Source: Flavobacterium microcysteis (GTDB taxonomy: Bacteria > Bacteroidota > Bacteroidia > Flavobacteriales > Flavobacteriaceae). From it: DNA of 64,000 nt. Made by a program: the position numbers and the translations under genes. Below, one piece after another: positions 44,318-56,320 of the stretch. The notes beneath the pieces were generated by a model, which saw only the letters and a list, made by a program, of their open reading frames with translations, searched no databases and was not told the origin of the DNA. Position 1 is the first letter of the stretch. Each line of letters opens with the position of its first letter. Where the stretch lies: assembly GCF_006385255.1 (NCBI RefSeq), contig NZ_VFJE01000053.1:124001-188000 (forward strand), written 5' to 3'.

Positions 44318-44477
44318 AGGCTTTTAACATTATAACTCATTATAGTGACATCCATTTTCTAAATTATAAAAGTAAAATTCTCATTGCAAAAAACAATAGC
44401 TACATAAAACTCTTTTTATTATGCTTTTACGATTTAATTCAAATTTATAAACAATTTATTAGGTGTCTTTTAATGGT

Positions 44478-44495
44478 ATTAGAATTAATTCTAAT
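44478..44495. promoter_or_regulatory. Perfect 18-bp palindrome upstream of the TPR-HTH gene
   Basis: ATTAGAATTAATTCTAAT is a perfect palindrome, 54 bases before the start codon at 44550. Position and symmetry suggest a regulator-binding site. An AT-rich background makes chance occurrence possible. Confidence 0.35.
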
Positions 44496-44549
44496 TTTAC
44501 CACCCCTATTTTAATTTACACACGAACATATTTTATTACTACCACTACT

Positions 44550-46400
44550 ATGCTAAAAAAGGTAATTTTTCTTCTCATCCCCATGGGAATTTTTGCACAA
44601 AACAAACCTTTTGATCCTGTTAAAACTCAGGAACGTATTACTCAGTATATTTTTTCTAAGCCGGATAGCGCTCGAATTTATCTTGAGATAATGCTTAAAA
44701 ACAACCATCTGCTTCATGACACGGTTATTTCTAAAAACTACAATAATTACGGCATTTATTACAGCCTGACCTCCAAGCACGATTCGGCTAAGATATTTTT
44801 TAACAAAGCCGTACTGAAATCGGCTAAATATCCTAAAAGCAAGGCCGGAAGTCTTGTCAATCTTTCTATTGCTTATAGAAACTCTGGCGATTATAAAACT
44901 TCATTAGATTATCAGGATGATGCCTTGAAGTTATATGAGTCTATAGATTATGAAAAAGGAAAAGCCATAGTATATGGCGAAATGGCTTCCAACTATGCTT
45001 ATATGATTGATAATAAAAGTGCTACCAAATACTTATTGAAAGGCATTGAAATCTTAAGCAAATCAACAGATAAAACGGACCGAAGAAACCTGGTCGTACA
45101 AAAGCAGAAGCTTGCGAATATCTATTTCAAATTAGAAAACTTCAAATTTGCTATTGATTTATATGAAGAATGCCTGCCTGCCATGAAGGAAGTCAAGGAT
45201 TTGAAGAATTACTATCTGACTCTTATCAATTATGGCGACTGCCTGACATATGTCAAAAACAATTCCAAGGCAAAAAAAGTGCTTATGGAAGCAGCAAAAG
45301 GCCTTGAAGACTTTCATAATGCAGAATTCATAAGCCTTGCCTATAGCAAATTGGGAAAAATAGCACTCCATGAAAAAAGACACGATCTCTCAAGTGCTTA
45401 CTATAAAAAAGCATTCGATGGAATCAAAAACACGAATTCTTTCCGGTTCATGCTTATTGGAGCAGAGTATATCCAACTTTTGAATCAGATTGGAGATTTT
45501 GAAAAAGCATTGGGTATTATCAAACTCGTTGAAAATTCTCCAAACCGAAAAACCTTCAATGCCGAAGATCAGATGTTTTTTTATGAGGTTTCTGCCATTA
45601 CTTTTAAGAACACCAATATCAAGGATAAAGGAATCGAAGCCCTTGAAAAAGCTATAATCATTAAAGATTCTTTAGCTAAAGTCTATAAAGAAACTACTAC
45701 TGAAGAACTTCAAGCAAAATTCCAAACCGAAATACAGCACAAAAAGAACACATCCCTAAAACAAAAAAATGAGCTTCTAAGTCAAAAAGTAAGTGCCCAA
45801 AGACGCAACTATATGCTTATTGGTTCAGGAATAATAGTCATTTGCATTTTAGGTTTTGCTATCTCAAGAGCTTATTGGCTTAAACATAAACTAGAAAAAG
45901 CCAAACTAAAAGAAGCTGAAGTTGAAAAGATGACTCTCTTGGAAAGAAACGCTTACAAGAAAAGAATTACTGAAGACCAACAACAAATCATACAGTTAAG
46001 AGAGCAGGAACTAACTTCAATGACTTTGCAGCTGGCCAATTTACAGGACCAGATTTCTTCAATTATCGAAAATGAATCTTCCAACAATGATCCGAAATCA
46101 AATTCTGTGAAGTCCTCCTTACAGCAAATCATCAAGCAAAAAGATTATTGGAAAGAGTTTTCGATTAAGTTCGGACAGATACATCCGGACTTCAACGACA
46201 AGCTGCAGGAACGGTTTCCAGTACTGACCAAAAACGATATCAATTTCTGTTCGTTGTTAAAGCTAAATCTTTCCAATAAGGAAATCGCAACCCTACTTCA
46301 GATTTCGCATGAAAGCGTGATTACGAAAAAGTATCGTATCAAGAAAAAAATACACATCCAGGACGACAATGAATTTCAAAAAATAATTTCAGAAATCTAG
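44550..46400 (+). CDS. Membrane-anchored TPR protein with C-terminal LuxR-type HTH
   Basis: Single-chain regulator of 616 residues from the ATG at 44550 (an upstream frame from 44463 would hide the signal peptide MLKKVIFLLIPMGIFAQ). About 10 helical repeats of TPR type fill residues 20-390, expected to be periplasmic. A membrane helix near 424-444 (YMLIGSGIIVICILGFAIS) is followed by a coiled coil (about 450-515) and a C-terminal HTH (about 560-605; LTKNDINFCSLLKLNLSNKE, then ATLLQISHESVITKKYRIKK). This layout is known in Bacteroidetes transcriptional regulators. It precedes the adhesin locus and is a candidate controller. Ligand and targets are unknown. Confidence 0.85.
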   Translation: MLKKVIFLLIPMGIFAQNKPFDPVKTQERITQYIFSKPDSARIYLEIMLKNNHLLHDTVISKNYNNYGIYYSLTSKHDSAKIFFNKAVLKSAKYPKSKAGSLVNLSIAYRNSGDYKTSLDYQDDALKLYESIDYEKGKAIVYGEMASNYAYMIDNKSATKYLLKGIEILSKSTDKTDRRNLVVQKQKLANIYFKLENFKFAIDLYEECLPAMKEVKDLKNYYLTLINYGDCLTYVKNNSKAKKVLMEAAKGLEDFHNAEFISLAYSKLGKIALHEKRHDLSSAYYKKAFDGIKNTNSFRFMLIGAEYIQLLNQIGDFEKALGIIKLVENSPNRKTFNAEDQMFFYEVSAITFKNTNIKDKGIEALEKAIIIKDSLAKVYKETTTEELQAKFQTEIQHKKNTSLKQKNELLSQKVSAQRRNYMLIGSGIIVICILGFAISRAYWLKHKLEKAKLKEAEVEKMTLLERNAYKKRITEDQQQIIQLREQELTSMTLQLANLQDQISSIIENESSNNDPKSNSVKSSLQQIIKQKDYWKEFSIKFGQIHPDFNDKLQERFPVLTKNDINFCSLLKLNLSNKEIATLLQISHESVITKKYRIKKKIHIQDDNEFQKIISEI

Positions 46401-47071: not shown

Positions 47072-47500
47072 ATGAGAAAATTATCACTAATTCTCTTCAT
47101 GGTCATCTTGTGCATTAGCCAAACCTATGCACAATCCCCCGATGACCAAATTAAGGTGCTACAAAAATGCATCGATCTTAAAGAACTCCAGGATTATCTG
47201 CCTGGAAAATCTACCCAGCCCCTATATGTTATGCAACATGGCGTTTCTTTTAACAAAGACATAAAGGTTTCAAAAAACGGAAAACCTTTAGTTTTTTTAT
47301 CTAAACAAGAAGTCAAATCACAGCATTTGGAAGCTTATTTCCTGTTTTGGACATTTGAAATAAATGAAAAAACAGCCCGTGTGTCATTTGTTTATAATTA
47401 TGACCAGAATAAGAGCCCAAAAGCAGTTCGAACAGATCTGGAACTTAGCAAGCAAGGTTCTGAATGGACTGTCACTACTGTAGCAATCAATAAAGTCTAA
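47072..47500 (+). CDS. Small secreted protein of unknown function
   Basis: Protein of 142 residues with a signal peptide (about 1-20, [10 protein letters not shown]). The mature part has no domain I recognise; it contains [18 protein letters not shown], a strand-rich middle ([13 protein letters not shown]) and a [18 protein letters not shown] stretch, and looks like a compact beta-rich fold with one cysteine. The stop is two bases before the start of the giant adhesin, so the two are almost certainly co-transcribed and perhaps coupled. A periplasmic or surface helper of the adhesin is a plausible inference, not evidence. Confidence 0.75.
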
Positions 47501-47502
47501 TC

Positions 47503-50500
47503 ATGGGAAATAGTAAAAAATACTTTCGAAAATTATCCCTGGCTATTGTATTGATTGTTCCTGTCCTTATGCTACTGATGCCTTCTTTCGCAGAAGCTCA
47601 GACAAGGGTCATCAACAACAATAAATTGCGAGTTGGAAATGGATCTGAAAATTCCATCAACAACTCGGGAAATATGCAGCAGCCTTTTTATTATAATGCA
47701 ATTGCTGCGCAATGGAGAAAATTAACCTATAGCAATTATGCTCTTGACAATGCATATGCTGTAGGGGGTGATGGAACCAATGAATGGAACACAAACGGAG
47801 TTACAGTTCAAAATCCGGCATTGACCAACCAAACTATCGATTATTCAGGATTCACTTTTACGACCGCTCCAAACGGATATGGAAAGGTGGTTTCTAAAGG
47901 AAATATAAATGTTGGAGGCTCTCTTCTTGAAGTCGAAAATACCTTCACACTTTTACAAAGTGCCGGTTATATTGAGGTAAAAGTAAAAGTTAAGAACGTT
48001 AGCGCTGCTCCTATTAGCAATGTCAGAATTTGGGTAGGAACCCGGGACGACTTTGTTGGTTTGACAGATAGCAACATCAAACAAAAAGGAAATCTTGTAA
48101 ACGGAGCTTTTGTATTAAACACTTTGCCTTCGCAGCCTTCTGCCGCTTTAAAAATTTATAATAATGATGAGGCTATTCTTTTCTATTCTAATTCTCCAAG
48201 AGGAAATACAATCGTAAATGCTTGTTGCGATTGGACTAATGTCATCGGCCAAAATCCAGCAACTTCTGTTGTAAACTCCGGAACTACCGATGGATCTTAT
48301 GGCTTTTATGTACGTTTCAATAACTTAGCCGTAAATGCAAGTGATGATTTTACCTGGTATTATGCTGCAGGTACTCTTGCAGATATTGACGATATTATTG
48401 AAGATGTAGCCCAGGCAAGCGGTGCTGTAAACAACATTACTTATACATCTGCTGTTTTTAACTCAACTTCACAAAACCCTGTAAATGGTTATTATGTTGT
48501 TGTTCCGCAAGGTTCAGCAGCACCAACAGAGGCTCAAATCCAAGCAGGTACTGCCTATGGAGCTGTTACACCTGTGGCACATGGCTCATCTGCAATGGCA
48601 GCCAATGTTGAAGTACCTTTCCCTATCACAGGACTGACGCCAAATACAACTTATGAATTGTATTTTGTAACTCGCGATGCAGTTCCTGCCTATTCAACGA
48701 TTTATCATACCTCATTTACTACACTGGCATATACTGTTCCTAATGTTACTGCTACAACAGCCGCTAGTGCCATTACAGCAAATTCTGCATCTTCAGGAGG
48801 AACTGTAGGTTCAGACGGTGGACAAGCTGTTACTGAAAGAGGTATTTGCTGGAGCACTACTGCAAATCCATCCATTGCAAACAGTAGGACTACAGATGGT
48901 TCTGGTTTGGGCACTTTTACAAGTGCAATGGCAGGATTAAATGCAGGAACTACTTATTATGTTAGGGCTTATGCTACTAACTCTGTGGGTACTGCTTATG
49001 GGCCACAAGTTACATTTACTACTGTAGCTAACAACAACCCTACTATTTCGACTATTGCTAATCAGTCAGTTTGCGCCAATGCAGCAACCTCAGCTCTTAC
49101 CTTTACGGTTGCAGATGTGGAAACTCCGGCAGCAAGCTTAACTGTAACAAGAAGCTCTTCTAATACGACTTTGGTTCCAAATGCGAACATAGTGGTATCG
49201 GGTACGGGTGCCAACAGAACAGTTACTGTTACACCGGCTGCCAACCAACACGGAACGGCTACAATTACACTAACCGTTACGGATCAATTAGGAGCTACTG
49301 CCACCACTACTTTTACAGTAACAGTTAATCAGTTTCCTGTAATAGCGTATACATCAGCTACGTATAATTTATACCAAAGCCAGACGATCACTCCAATTAT
49401 TGTTAGCAATACTGGCGGAGCAAGCACAAATTGGAGCATTACTCCTGCTTTACCGGCTGGATTGATTTTTAACCCATTAAACGGAACCATTACCGGAACT
49501 CCAACAGGTTCACAGTCTACTGCGAGCTACACAGTTACGGCAAACAATAACGGTTGTACGGCAACGACAAGTTTCTCAATTTACATCACACCATGTAACA
49601 CCTTTAATGCCTCTGACGTTATTACAAACGGAAATGCGTTATTGACCGGAAATGAAGTACGTCTTACAGAAAGCCTTGGTAACCTATTTGGTACGGTTTG
49701 GGGTAAAGCGAGACTTGATTTGAATGAAAACTTCAAAATCAGTACTCAATTATATTTTGGTGCATCTGACGCAGGTGCAGATGGATTGGCTTTCGTATTA
49801 CAACCTTTATCTTCTAATCAGGGAGTTGCAGGCGGTGGTCTTGGATACCAGGGAATCTCACCTTCTCTTGCTGTAGAATTTGATACGTTTTATAACTCTG
49901 GTGCAGATCCTATTTCGAATGACCATATCGCTATTGTAAAAAATGGATTGGCATTAAGTACTTCTGCACATTCAGAATTTGTTCCTTATTACAATGCTGG
50001 CCAAATAGAAGATGGCAATTGGCATGATGCCGTTTTTGAATGGATTGCTTCTTCAAAAACATTTAAGGTGACTTATGAAGGTACGGTAATTTTCAATACC
50101 GTAATCGACATCCCGAATACGATTTTAGGAAACCAATATGCTTATTGGGGCTTTACGGCTGCAACAGGCGGTTCTGTAAACGAGCACAGAGTACGTTTTA
50201 ACGGTAACTGTTTGACATCAATCGTAAGCACTCCTCCTACTATTTCAACTGTAGCCAACCAAAGCTATTGCTACAATACTTCAGGTTCTGTGAATGTTAC
50301 CGTAGCAGATAGCGAATCTCCTGTGGCGAACATTTCGCTTCAAGCAACAGGTTCAACAAACACGGCTTTGCTTCCTTTGGCAAACATTTCAGTTACAGGT
50401 GCCGGAGCAACAAGAACAGTAAGCTTCACGCCGGTAGCAGGACAATTTGGAACTTCATCTGTAACTTTGAGAGCTACAGACGGTGATGGTACGACATCAA

Positions 50501-53500
50501 CGAGAACATTCACTGTTACTTTTGACGATACTGTAAATCCAATTGCTGTTGCACAAAACCTTACTTTATATTTAGGTACAAACGGACAGGCTACTACAAC
50601 CGCTGCTGCTATCAACAACGGTTCGTCTGACAATTGCGGTATTGCAAGCATTACAGCTTCTCCATTAACTTTCAATGGAACAAACCTGGGTACAAACACT
50701 GTAACCTTGACTGTAACCGATGTTAAAGGAAATGTTGGCACAACAACCTCAACAATTACAGTTATTGACAATATTGCTCCAACGGTAATCACTCAAAACG
50801 CAACCGTGTCTATTGGTGCTAACGGACAGGTATCAATAACTCCTGCACAAGTAAACAATGGTTCTTTTGATAACGTAGGAATCACTTCTTTGACAGTAAG
50901 TCCAAGTACATTCAACTGTTCTAACCTTGGCCCAAATACGGTAACATTAACAGCTGTAGATGCTAGCGGAAATACTTCTTCTTCAACAGCAGTGGTAACG
51001 GTTCAGGATACTACAAACCCGACTATCATTACCAGAAACATCACTGTAAACTTGAATGCAGCCGGAATTTACAATCTGGTTCCTTCTGAGGTTAATAATG
51101 GTTCTTATGACAATTGTGGTATTTCTAACCTTGGAATCACCAGAGCTTTATTTACCTGCGCTGATGTAGGGCAAAGTTTTACAATTACGCTTTTCGGAAA
51201 TGATCCAACAGGCAACTTAGGTGCTGCAACGGCAGTAGTTACTGTAGCCGATGTTATGGCTCCAACTGTAATCACACAAAACCTTACCGTACAGCTAAAC
51301 GCAAGCGGACAGGCTACGATTACTCCTGCACAAATCAATAACGGTTCAACAGACAATTGCGGTATTGCTTCTTATGCTTTAAGCAAAACTACTTTTAATT
51401 GTTCTGAAACCGGAGCGAATACGGTAACACTTTCTGTAACCGATATTCATGGAAATACAGGAACAGCAACTGCTGTAGTAACCGTTCAGGACACTACAAA
51501 TCCGACTATCATTACTCAAAACATCACAGTACAACTGGATGCTAACGGACAAGTAACAATAACTCCTGCACAAGTAAATAATGGCTCTTTTGACAATTGT
51601 GCTATTACTGCTTATGCACTTGATATCACTTCTTTTAACTGTACTAATGTTGGTGCCAATACGGTGACTTTAACCGGAACGGATGCCAGTGGAAACTCGG
51701 CTTCAAATACGGCTATCGTAACTGTAGAAGATGTTATTGCTCCAATCGTACTTACGCAGAATATCACAGTACAATTAGATGCTAACGGACAGGCTACAAT
51801 AACGCCTGCACAAATCAACAATGCTTCGACTGACAACTGTGCGATTGCTACGTATGCGCTTGACATAACAGCTTTCGACTGTACTGATATTGGTGCAAAC
51901 ACGGTAACACTGACCGTAACTGACGTAAACGGAAATTCAGCTTCGAATACGGCAGTCGTAACAGTACAAGACGTTATCGCTCCAACTGTACTTACACAGA
52001 ATATTACGATTCAGCTTGATGCTAACGGACAGGCAACTATCACAGCTGCTCAAATCAACAATGCTTCGACTGACAACTGTGCGATTGCGACTTATGTTCT
52101 TGACATAACAGCTTTCGACTGTACTGATATTGGTGCAAACACGGTAACGTTGACAGTAACTGATGTAAATGGAAATTCAGCTTCGAATACGGCTATCGTA
52201 ACCGTAGAAGATGTTATTGCTCCAATCGTTCTTACGCAGAATATTACTGTACAATTAGATGCTAACGGTCAGGCAACTATTACGCCGGCTCAAATCAACA
52301 ATGCTTCGACTGACAACTGTGCGATTGCTACTTATGTTCTTGACATAACGGCTTTCGATTGTACAAACGTTGGAACAAACACGGTAACATTGACTGTAAC
52401 TGACGTAAATGGAAATTCAGCTTCAAATACGGCTATAGTAACCGTAGAAGATGTTATTGCTCCAACTGTGCTTACGCAGAATATCACGGTTCAGTTAGAT
52501 GCTAACGGGCAGGTAACTATTACGCCAGCACAAATCAATAATGCATCAACTGACAACTGTACGATTGCTACTTATGTTCTTGACATAACTTCTTTTGACT
52601 GTACAAACGTTGGCACCAATACGGTAACACTTACTGTAACTGATGTAAACGGAAACACGGCTTCTAACACGGCAGTAGTAACTGTTGAAGATACCCTGGC
52701 TCCTATTGTTCTTACGCAGAACATCACTGTTGAATTGGATGCTAACGGACAGGCTACAATTACGCCTGCTCAGATCAACAATGCATCGACAGACAATTGT
52801 GCTATTGCTACCTACACTTTAGACATTACAAGCTTTAGCTGTGCTAATGTAGGCCCGAATACTGTAGTATTGACTGTAACTGATATCCACGGAAATTCAG
52901 CTTCAAATACAGCTATAGTAACGGTAGAAGACAACATCAATCCAACTGTACTTACTCAGAATATTACAGTTCAGTTAGATACTAACGGACAGGCTACAAT
53001 CACACCGGCTCAAATCAACAATGGTTCGTTTGACAACTGTACGATTGCTACTTATGTTCTTGATACAACTGCTTTCACATGCGAAAATGTTGGGGTAAAT
53101 ACGGTAACATTAACTGTAACAGACGTAAACGGAAATTCAGCTTCAAATACAGCTGTAGTTACTGTTGAAGACAACATCCTTCCAACGATGATTGCTCAAA
53201 ACGTAACCGTTCATCTAAACATCAATGGTGAATATACATTGACAACAGCTGATGTGGATAATGGTTCTTTTGACAACTGTGCTATCGAAACGATGGGTAT
53301 TTCCCGTACTTTCTTTAACTGTTCTGATATAGGAACTACCAATACAATCACATTGTTTGGTGTTGATGTTAACGGAAATTATGCTTCAACAACTGCTATA
53401 ATAACTGTTGCTGATATGATGGCTCCAACTGTAAGAACACAAAACATCACAGTTGAATTGGATGCTAACGGACAGGCTACAATTACTCCTGCCCAGATTA

Positions 53501-55392
53501 ACAATGGTTCGACAGACAATTGCGGAATTGCAACGTATGCACTTGACATTACAAGCTTCAATTGTACAAACATGGGTGCTAACACAGTAACTCTGATTGT
53601 AACTGACAATTATGGAAATTCGGCTTCGAATACGGCTATCGTAACCGTAGAAGATGTTATTGCTCCTATCGTTCTTACGCAGAATATTACTGTACAATTA
53701 GATGCTAACGGTCAGGCAACTATTACGCCTGCTCAAATCAATAATGCATCGACTGACAACTGCGGAATTGCAACGTATGCACTTGATATCACAAATTTCA
53801 ATTGTACAAATACAGGTGCTAACACTGTAACGTTGACAGTAACTGATGTGAATGGAAACACAGCTTCAAACACAGCAATTGTAACTGTAGAAGATGTTAT
53901 AGCTCCAACAGTTCTTACGCAGAATATCACAGTACAATTGGGTGCTAACGGACAAGCTACAATTACGCCTGCACAAATCAATAACGGTTCGACAGACAAT
54001 TGTGCTATTGCAACATATGCATTAGATATCACAGAGTTCAACTGTACTAATGTAGGTGCCAATACGGTAATGCTTACAGCAACTGACGCTAGCGGAAATG
54101 CTTCTTCAGCAACCGCTGTAGTAACTGTAGAAGACACTAGTGCTCCAACAGTAATCACACAGAACATTACGGTTCAGCTTGATACTAACGGACAAGCTAC
54201 AATCACAACAGCTCAAATTGATAATGGTTCAGCAGACAGTTGTGGAATTGCAACGTATGCTCTTGACATAACCGAGTTCAACTGTACTAATGTAGGTGCT
54301 AATACAGTAACCTTAACGATAACTGATGTGAATGGAAACACAGCTTCCAATACCGCTATCGTAACTGTGGCTGACACAATTGCTCCAACGGTAATCACTC
54401 AGAACATTACAGTTCAATTGGATATCAACGGACAGGTTACAATCACGCCTGCACAGATCAACAATGGTTCGACAGACAATTGCGGTATCGCAAGCTACAC
54501 ACTTGACAAGATAGATTTCTCTTGTTCAAATGTTGGAAACAACACCGTAATCTTAAGTGTAACTGATGTTAACGGAAATGTTGCTACTCAAACAGCAATA
54601 GTAACGGTTCAGGATGCAATGGCTCCATATGCTATCACACGTGATGTGACTGTTTCTCTTGATGCTGATGGAATGGCGTATATAACAGCTACAGAAATCA
54701 ACGATGGTTCTTCAGACAACTGTGGTATTGCTTCTATTGCGTTAAGCCAGACAGCTTTCAACTGTGGCGAAACCGGAGCTAATTTCGTGACTATGACGGT
54801 TACGGATATTCATGGAAATGTTTCATCAGCAGGGGCTGTAGTAACAGTTATCAATACGTTTGGAGATAATGACAATGATGGAATTCCTGACAATTGTGAT
54901 CCAGATGATGATAATGACGGTGTAGAAGACACTATCGATAACTGTCCGTTTACTTACAACCCAGATCAGACTGATACTGACAATGACGGATTGGGCGATG
55001 CTTGTGACGACGATTATGATAACGACGGTGTACCGAACGAATCAGACAACTGTCCTTACACATACAACCCAGGTCAGGAAGATATCGACAAAGACGGAAT
55101 CGGAGATGTTTGCGACTTGACAGAAATCAACATCTCTCAAGCGTTTACGCCAAACAACGACGGAATCAACGATACATGGCAAATTATCAACATCACCAAC
55201 TATCCAAATTCTGTAGTAAAAGTGTTTAACCGTTGGGGATCTGAAGTATTCAGTGCCAAAGGATACAAAAATGATTGGAATGGTCATTATAAAGGTTCTA
55301 GCAATCCGCTGCCTGAATCCTCATACTATTACCAAATTGATTTAGGAAACGGAACTCCTGTTTATGAAGGATGGATTTACCTAACCCGATAA
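47503..55392 (+). CDS. Giant T9SS-secreted adhesin with lectin domain and 18 tandem repeats
   Basis: Surface protein of 2629 residues. Order: signal peptide (1-32); N-terminal domain of unknown type (about 33-305); two fibronectin-III-like domains (about 306-507); two Ig/cadherin-like domains (about 510-695); an L-type lectin-like domain (about 697-904; [31 protein letters not shown]); another Ig-like domain (about 908-1005); eighteen 80-residue HYR-like repeats (about 1007-2449), mostly with two cysteines each; thrombospondin type-3 calcium-binding repeats (about 2455-2540; [19 protein letters not shown]); and a gliding-motility-type C-terminal domain (about 2544-2629; [22 protein letters not shown]). 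That terminal domain is the type B T9SS signal, which in known systems needs a SprF-like partner; one follows. Likely role: adhesion or gliding, resembling SprB in plan. Confidence 0.92.
50523..54849 (+). repeat. Eighteen tandem 240-bp units inside the adhesin gene
   Basis: The coding sequence is periodic at exactly 240 bp (80 codons), except that one unit is 243 bp. Anchors (the codons before GCT AAC GGA CAG) recur at about 50578, 50818, 51058, 51298, 51538, 51778, 52018, 52258, 52498, 52738, 52978, 53218, 53461, 53701, 53941, 54181, 54421 and 54661. Units 6-9 are the most similar at DNA level, a sign of recent expansion or conversion. Confidence 0.88.
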
Positions 55393-55420
55393 TCAGCAAC
55401 AAATAAAAATGACAATCATT

Positions 55421-56320
55421 ATGAAAACATTCAATAAATTAAGCACTGTACTGTTATTTTTCTTTGCCGCTTATGCATACGGGCAACAGGAAACGAGCTT
55501 TACATTTTACAGAAATAATATGAACATCATCAACCCTGCTTATGCAGGGGCTGATGGTGAAACCATAATCTCAAGCAATTTCAAGACACAATGGGCAGGA
55601 GTAAAAGATGCTCCGGAAACCCAGGCTGTATCTTTTGGAACGCCAACAGGGAAAAAATTGGGAATCGGACTTTCTATTATCAACGATAAGACATTCGTTG
55701 AAAAACAGACTTCGGTTTTTGCAGATTTCTCTTATTTGGTTCCTATAAACGAAACTCTTGACCTGTACCTGGGAGTTAAGGCGGGCGGAAATTTTTACGA
55801 TGTAAACGTGAACGGATTACAAACTTACAATGTAGAATCTGACCCGTCTTTGGTAAACATCAACCGATTTAATCCTAACTTTGGTATTGGAGCTTATTTA
55901 AAGCACAAGAAATTTTATGTTTCGCTTTCTACTCCAAAAATGCTTAGTACCCAACGTGCTAAAAATGAAGACGGAGTGGCAACAGTGGCTTCAGACAGGC
56001 CTCATATTTACCTCAGCGGCGGTTATGACATCAAGCTAAATGAAGACTTTATGCTAAAGCCTTCTACCCTGCTTCGTTATGTAAACGGTGCTCCGGTTTC
56101 TATGGATATCACAGGTCTTGTGAGCTACAAACAGCAATTTGGACTTGGTGTGGCTTACAGAACAGACAAAGCCATCAACGGATTGGCAACTATAAAAGTT
56201 AACGATTGGTTTGATTTTGGGTATGCTTATGAGCATTCTTTACGTGATGAAATTGCAAACGTAACTAGTGGGACACATGAATTTTATTTGAGATTTAACT
56301 TGACGCCAAAAGCAAATTAA
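55421..56320 (+). CDS. PorP/SprF-family type IX secretion membrane protein
   Basis: Outer-membrane beta-barrel of 299 residues from the ATG at 55421; a start twelve bases upstream adds MTII and is less likely. The signal peptide ends FFAAYAYGQ. The mature protein opens with the family motif FTFYRNNMNIINPAYAGADG, followed by WAGVKDAPETQAVSFGTP and GLGIGLSIINDK-type strands, and ends FYLRFNL. In Flavobacterium johnsoniae SprF is needed to secrete SprB and binds its type B C-terminal domain. Here the gene lies 28 bases after the adhesin gene whose product has that domain, so it is the cognate secretion/anchoring partner by family and position. Confidence 0.93.
   Translation: MKTFNKLSTVLLFFFAAYAYGQQETSFTFYRNNMNIINPAYAGADGETIISSNFKTQWAGVKDAPETQAVSFGTPTGKKLGIGLSIINDKTFVEKQTSVFADFSYLVPINETLDLYLGVKAGGNFYDVNVNGLQTYNVESDPSLVNINRFNPNFGIGAYLKHKKFYVSLSTPKMLSTQRAKNEDGVATVASDRPHIYLSGGYDIKLNEDFMLKPSTLLRYVNGAPVSMDITGLVSYKQQFGLGVAYRTDKAINGLATIKVNDWFDFGYAYEHSLRDEIANVTSGTHEFYLRFNLTPKAN

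Follow-up and report, generated by a model that had tools for sequence, protein, structure and literature searches.

A three-gene adhesin locus

The DNA considered here, called the window throughout, is a 64,000-nucleotide stretch of Flavobacterium microcysteis (RefSeq assembly GCF_006385255.1, contig NZ_VFJE01000053.1, positions 124,001 to 188,000, forward strand), and window coordinates count from its first letter. Three genes on its forward strand form a putative operon. The first (47072..47500), an open reading frame (ORF) whose homologs lie directly upstream of related adhesin genes, encodes a probably exported protein of 142 amino acids (aa); the second (47503..55392), recognised from its ORF, Pfam and NCBIfam, encodes an adhesin of 2629 aa with a type B signal of the type IX secretion system (T9SS); and the third (55409..56320), assigned with Pfam and NCBIfam, encodes a 303-aa carrier of the PorP/SprF family that lacks cysteine, a PRFF tail and a downstream PorE gene. 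The small-protein gene ends 2 bases before the adhesin gene, and the carrier gene starts 16 bases 3' of it. On balance we favour the view that the product is a lectin adhesin that is exported by the T9SS and held by the barrel of its carrier, and that it is not driven along the gliding track.

The adhesin is a chain of modules, given here from the N-terminus and all on the forward strand. A signal peptide is followed by a head domain (residues 34-305; 47602..48417), which matched no family in the Pfam scan and for which alignment, a model and VIA-align together predict a beta-supersandwich-like fold, and then by Fn3-like modules (306-505; 48418..49017) assigned by eye, one member of the head alignment matching fn3 at 0.0014. 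Pfam places a Big_9 module (510-607) and a He_PIG module (612-695; together 49030..49587) before the L-type lectin domain (708-900; 49624..50202). A second Big_9-like module with approximate limits (906-1006; 50218..50520), Big_9 having two stretches in Pfam, leads into a rod of 18 repeats (1007-2448; 50521..54846). The C-terminal part consists of TSP3 calcium-type repeats (2449-2541; 54847..55125; TSP_3 E 7e-21) and the type B sorting domain (2542-2629; 55126..55389), which CHU_C (PF13585) matches at 2542-2627 with E 9.2e-26 and TIGR04131 at 72.9 bits against a cut-off of 35. An earlier note on this DNA, made from the letters alone, had named the lectin-like domain, the rod of 18 repeats, the TSP3 repeats, the type B domain and a SprF-like partner of the adhesin's own, and every one of these is present. 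Judged by its sequence, the adhesin is a type B substrate of the T9SS with an adjacent carrier, and would be exported by that route.

Counted from an S-x-D-N core, the 18 repeats are 80 residues long except for two of 81; independently, Tandem Repeats Finder scores a 240-base-pair array of 12.4 copies at 2294. F. endophyticum DSM 29537 has an ortholog (locus L032) that aligns without a gap across all 18 repeats and every domain listed above; this locus agrees with the window in gene order, with the genes for the small protein, the carrier and the regulator and the sugar-nucleotide genes all present. Identity between the two species is 84-97% in the non-repeat domains, 73.8-95.0% in the repeats and 51.5% in the signal peptide. 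At codon positions 1, 2 and 3 it is 0.89, 0.93 and 0.52 in the rod and 0.91, 0.93 and 0.57 in the lectin, which we take to show purifying selection on the adhesin gene and to rule out a chance frame. The best F. endophyticum DNA match lies at the same repeat position for 10 of the 18 window repeats; for repeats 6-9 and 14, another window repeat is a nearer match (0.85-0.88) than any F. endophyticum repeat (0.77-0.81), so homogenisation of the repeats is under way at a constant number of 18. In both species the first two repeats have one cysteine each and the other 16 have two. The single cysteines of repeats 1 and 2 (window 50521-51000) are C1045 and C1139, and a disulfide linking these two repeats is possible.

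The earlier note also saw a SprB-like plan. This stands in so far as the protein is a giant type B substrate with an adjacent carrier, and falls in that SprB repeats (PF13573) are not among the Pfam families reported for it at E 0.05 and that such repeats are carried by other genes of the genome, a separate sprB-like operon among them. When the genome was searched for SprB repeats, none of the 50 listed matches lay within 171503-179392 of its contig C36, the place of the adhesin. On these grounds we ruled out that the locus is SprB itself.

Carrier tails and PorE genes

Three papers frame the question of how such a protein is held. The C-terminal Cys-X-Cys of SprF is disulfide-bonded to GldK of the moving track, and when SprF lacks these cysteines SprB is still exported and gliding is abolished (Liu et al., 2025; PMC12635249). 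Type B substrates may be mobile, such as SprB and Fjoh_4750, or static, such as Fjoh_3952, which has a PorE-like gene beside its carrier (Paillat et al., 2025; PMC12618676). It has been postulated that mobile type B proteins are held by a PorP-like protein only, and immobile ones by PorE as well (Gorasia et al., 2022; PMC9143113).

The window carrier matches PorP_SprF (PF11751) at E 8.1e-68 and TIGR03519 at 231.1 bits. It contains no cysteine at all, ends ..EFYLRFNLTPKAN without a PRFF tail, and no PorE-like gene was found downstream of it. Its genome holds ten PorP/SprF matches, nine of them adjoining one of its 20 type B signals. Six carriers, all in other operons, have a PRFF, PRYF or QRFF tail together with a PorE-like gene; two have a Cys tail and no PorE, one beside a SprB-repeat protein and one an orphan; and one match is part of a 635-residue protein. 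The SprF of the separate sprB-like operon has the Cys-X-Cys tail. The sprB-like frame itself seems to be split by the assembly, with contig ends C37:498861 and C33:303186 (L083, L091) sharing the same stretch.

Within the genus, we sorted 100 carriers from 17 other genomes by their tails and by the presence of a downstream PorE gene. Eighty of the regions, from 14 genomes, were picked by hand among the listed matches (at least 25 genomes), and 20 were added later; the first 80 omitted partial frames, long SprD-like frames, four of the eight matches listed for one genome (G018) and two weaker full-length matches, and these last two, included among the later 20, have no tail motif. A PRFF-type tail is present in 70 of the 100, with a PorE gene beside 69 of the 70; at L245 the tail is PRYF and no PorE was found. 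Tail cysteines occur in 26, counting one carrier with a single tail cysteine (L247) and one with C-A-S-C (L201), and PorE was seen with none of the 26, one of which (L141) is 221 bases away from the end of its contig. Three carriers have neither motif nor PorE (L171, L242, L243). At L254:2565-3470 a probably frameshifted tail is found with PorE present, and near-copies in the same genome end in PRFF. No statement of this link between tail and PorE was met in the available parts of PMC9143113, PMC12618676 or PMC12635249.

Among the loci that share the head or the lectin of the window adhesin, carriers without either motif are found at L032, L033, L035, L039, L040, L041, L212, L213 and L238, the description 'tail-less' fitting less well for the longer tails of L033, L040 and L041. 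The lectin-bearing loci L042, L045 and L214 have PRFF carriers and PorE. Where the carrier of a lectin-bearing type B protein was seen (window, L032, L041, L042, L045, L214), it never has a Cys tail.

Carrier trees were built without the last 22 residues and with random samples only of the PRFF carriers. The no-motif carriers, the window's included, form one group of eight rows (support 99/98, in 100% of 200 bootstrap trees), and in a second tree one of nine rows (97/83, 98% of bootstrap trees); L033 and L040 had fallen elsewhere in an initial tree that preceded these, and the later trees omit the long branches L033, L040 and L175, as well as L214 in the nine-row tree. With L242 and L243 added, both stand apart, the window's nine being supported at 91/87 and a core of seven at 100/100, so that at least two tail-less lineages are represented in the sampled trees. 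By eye, the frames upstream of these two carriers (L242:2568-3485, L243:2554-3471) end like type B proteins. A second twin-cysteine lineage (L236:221-1180, L237:7924-8892, L239:3136-4095, L240:10627-11586 and L201), with the tail RR[ED]CGCS, or CASC in L201, stands apart from the SprF-type carriers (100/100), which suggests that the Cys tail may have arisen twice.

Lectin, head, small protein and neighbouring genes

The lectin domain matches PF18483 (Lectin_L-type_dom) at 146.9 bits against a cut-off of 78.3 (E 1e-42), and its AlphaFold model, built with 17 sequences, has a mean pLDDT of 88.3. The top fold match of the model is the M. jannaschii legume lectin domain 7elv (TM 0.91), followed by plant lectins, SraP and YwfG, the last two at a TM of about 0.75-0.79 normalised by query; 7elv is an archaeal protein, and SraP and YwfG are surface proteins of Gram-positive bacteria. 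In phytohaemagglutinin-L, Asp86 presumably serves the sugar, and Glu122, Asp124, Asn128, Asp132 and His137 the metals. These residues align with Asp760, Glu792, Asp794, Asn798, Asp802 and His808 of the window lectin, so that all six positions hold the expected residue, and they are conserved in 17, 16, 17, 17, 7 and 15 of the 17 rows, respectively. The domain is 87.7% identical to its ortholog, about as conserved as the neighbouring domains. With its site intact, the lectin is likely to bind sugar, and the sugar-binding surface system that the earlier note had suggested finds support in both sequence and predicted fold.

PF18483 exceeds its cut-off in 5 of 199 genomes of the genus, including the window's own, where it has one match, and reaches E <= 0.001 in 19 of 199. 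Genomes G129 (L061, L079) and G024 (L063, L078) each have two L-type lectin frames about 2 kilobases apart, with the lectin near the N-terminus. Literature searches, with most subscription journals outside their reach, found no work joining an L-type lectin with type IX secretion and gliding, none joining a legume lectin with Bacteroidetes and type IX secretion, and none on a legume lectin domain of M. jannaschii, the codes 7ELV and 7EXO returning unrelated work only.

The lectin had been thought to form the tip of the fibre, and this must be revised: it is internal, with about 670 residues in front of it, and the tip would be the domain at 34-305. Eight other loci (L033-L040), which belong to Flavobacteriaceae, to Aquiflexum and to several bins of Bacteroidota, share a head unit (34-415) with 48-56% identity; the lectin profile has no match in these, L036 and L038 being cut by contig ends. 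The head has a patchy distribution, with full-length matches in 10 of 398 genomes of the genus, in 3 of 397 of the family, plus one lacking the last third, and in 1 of 395 drawn from the phylum, which is the window's own. The head model is modest (pLDDT 71.2, residues 1-59 below 50). VIA-align matches it to dextran dextrinase with Z 13.9 over 211 residues, to GH116 enzymes with Z 12.5-13.5 and to cellobiose and related phosphorylases with Z 11.8-12.5; in its rows the match always covers the N-terminal part of the enzyme, over 188-217 residues at 5-14% identity, the part that in GH116, GH94 and related enzymes is called the supersandwich. Foldseek on the same modest model gives 67 matches at E <= 0.001, but the TM by query is about 0.3 with a large root-mean-square deviation in the top rows, and VIA-align is the clearer of the two for this fold. 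In its predicted fold the head is similar to the domain at the N-terminus of several glycoside hydrolases, a likeness that shows no function. In another genus, a 2364-aa frame (L214:5604-12698) has a more distant head, the lectin, a PRFF carrier and a PorE gene, that is, the head and lectin modules on a different anchor.

The 142-aa protein has a signal-like start and no significant Pfam or PDB relative. In the window and at all nine loci L032-L040 its gene immediately precedes the head gene; BLAST detected seven of the nine, and a profile derived from the rest found those of L036 and L037. The same arrangement is seen at L212, L213 and, weakly, L238 (2.6e-4). Thirteen of the 18 head loci have it; at the remaining five (L236, L237, L239, L240 and L214) it was not found. 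Searched alone, it occurs in 5 of 397 family genomes, three of which have the head too. One relative (G493, L223:3494-4213) makes up the C-terminal half of a 239-residue protein, whose gene is followed by a large gene that runs off the contig, and a weak match in G491 (6.6e-8) is, by eye, not beside an adhesin. At L034 the small protein accompanies an adhesin with a type A signal (TIGR04183, 33.1 bits, cut-off 23), and at L241 one with a type A signal recognised by eye and only part of the head unit, so it is apparently the adhesin, and not the carrier, that the small protein goes with. It is present at 10 of 10 loci with a no-motif carrier or a type A signal, whereas 0 of 5 with Cys or PorE carriers have it, loci that are related and not independent. 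RemZ, considered as a precedent for a small bound partner, is a homologue of RemA according to the available text and provides none (PMC10994853).

Wza/Wzc-type export genes flank the adhesin locus on both sides, in agreement with the earlier description of a site between polysaccharide export regions, and are kept in F. endophyticum. The gene directly after the carrier encodes an ABC-2 membrane protein on the opposite strand. A divergent upstream gene (44463-46400), also found beside the operon in F. endophyticum, encodes a TPR protein with a LuxR-like C-terminal helix-turn-helix, and this protein is a candidate regulator of the operon. The suggestion that the adhesin binds the cell's own glycan has this location in its favour and against it the finding that relatives of the window's polysaccharide genes adjoin only two of the nine head loci L032-L040 (L032 and L034), several of which are short. 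The same count gives little support to the idea that polysaccharide genes generally accompany the head.

Proposed holding of the adhesin and comparison with known systems

Based on these observations, we propose a model in which the three-gene operon makes a surface adhesin. The signal peptide would take the adhesin across the inner membrane, and the type B domain together with the T9SS across the outer membrane, where the adjacent PorP/SprF-type barrel would collect and hold it. The TSP3 repeats and the 18 Ig-like repeats would form a rod stiffened by calcium and disulfides, bearing an internal, calcium-dependent L-type lectin and, at its tip, the supersandwich-like head. The lectin, and possibly the head, may bind glycans, whether those of a surface such as that of a plant or alga, those of other cells or those of the matrix that surrounds the strain itself. 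The small upstream protein would be an exported partner of the head, either a chaperone or a subunit. Since the carrier has neither a Cys tail nor a PRFF tail with PorE, we believe that nothing but the barrel holds the adhesin and that the motor does not drive it.

The gliding system that the earlier note had envisaged is disfavoured because the carrier has no cysteine and hence no Cys-X-Cys tail, the motif through which SprF binds the moving track (PMC12635249). For want of a cysteine no disulfide adduct with GldK is possible and movement would need another link. Motor drive of the adhesin is unlikely. Several points weigh against our view. Asp802, which we took above to be a metal position, is kept in 7 of the 17 lectin rows, in a gappy part of the alignment. 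The head-family relatives at L236, L237, L239 and L240 have Cys-tail carriers, and the head is therefore not tied to immobility. SprF without cysteines still touches the track or moves sporadically (PMC12635249), and the absence of PorE would, under the postulate of Gorasia et al., 2022 (PMC9143113), predict that the pair is mobile.

A bolder extension of the barrel-held model, which we put forward tentatively and would not expect to hold in full, is that a third fate exists for type B adhesins. Carriers of a tail-less lineage, linked to neither the gliding track nor peptidoglycan, would hold glycan-binding rods in the outer membrane on their own, leaving them free to diffuse, cluster or be shed, and a small exported protein of an undescribed family would complete or protect the tip. 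The tail would then be an exchangeable address, with cysteines directing the adhesin to the motor, PRFF to the wall and neither leaving it free.

It is also conceivable, if unlikely, that the adhesin glides, either because its carrier contacts the track without a disulfide or because the adhesin borrows a Cys-tail carrier, with the lectin taking hold of the substratum in the manner of RemA. No PorE gene lies downstream, which is also true of the SprB pair and is in line with the rule in PMC9143113; cross-talk of carriers is reported for closely related C-terminal domains (CTDs; PMC12618676); Cys-tail carriers occur among the head-family relatives; and besides the SprB operon the genome encodes GldL (TIGR03513), so that a motor protein of the T9SS and gliding is present. 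Set against this are the adhesin's own adjacent carrier and that carrier's lack of cysteine, given that loss of the SprF cysteines abolished gliding (PMC12635249). We are more doubtful still that the adhesin is static and anchored to the wall by a PorE partner encoded elsewhere, one of the genome's six PorE-like proteins serving a carrier that has no PRFF tail. Six PorE-like genes are indeed available in other operons, and PorE operons are found at the loci of the lectin relatives L042, L045 and L214, but the window carrier lacks the type of tail that is accompanied by PorE in 69 of 70 carriers of the genus, and wall anchoring through PorE is not supported. Finally, that the head is the working end and the lectin a structural remnant is very improbable: heads do occur with no detected lectin in L033-L040 (L036 and L038 being truncated) and it is with the head rather than the lectin that the small protein is associated, but all six site positions hold the residue we expected and the lectin matches its ortholog as closely as its neighbours do.

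For the barrel-held adhesin that we prefer, the two published rules make opposite predictions, the absence of PorE pointing to a mobile protein and the absence of Cys-X-Cys to one without motor drive. The 2022-2025 papers raise the question of how the fate of a type B protein is decided, and this pair allows it to be put to a direct test. The match between tail and PorE in the 100 sampled carriers offers a simple sequence test for telling motor-linked, wall-linked and unlinked adhesins of Bacteroidota apart. Furthermore, in this operon a legume-type lectin is mounted on a T9SS rod, and two conserved families without a Pfam entry come to light, the head domain and the small partner.

Each part of the system has relatives among known proteins. 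The N-terminal domains of GH116 and GH94 enzymes have a fold like that predicted for the head (Z 11.6-13.9 over 188-217 residues), but no catalytic barrel follows the window head, and the comparison has to be read with the modest model and the low identity in mind. The L-type lectins 7elv, SraP and YwfG share fold and site residues with the window lectin, which, unlike them, sits inside a T9SS type B rod. RemA, a mobile lectin of F. johnsoniae, is likewise a T9SS-exported surface protein with a lectin domain; in contrast, RemA has a type A CTD, whereas the window adhesin has a type B domain, its own carrier and an L-type lectin (PMC12618676). The static operon Fjoh_3952-Fjoh_3951-Fjoh_3950 also combines a type B adhesin with a cognate PorP/SprF-like carrier, but it includes a PorE homolog (Fjoh_3950), and the window pair has neither a PorE-like gene nor a PRFF tail (PMC12618676). 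SprB-SprF of F. johnsoniae shares with the window pair a very long repeat protein, a type B domain, an adjacent carrier and the absence of a PorE gene, yet the window adhesin has no reported SprB repeats, its carrier has no Cys-X-Cys tail, and its genome has a SprB-type operon in addition.

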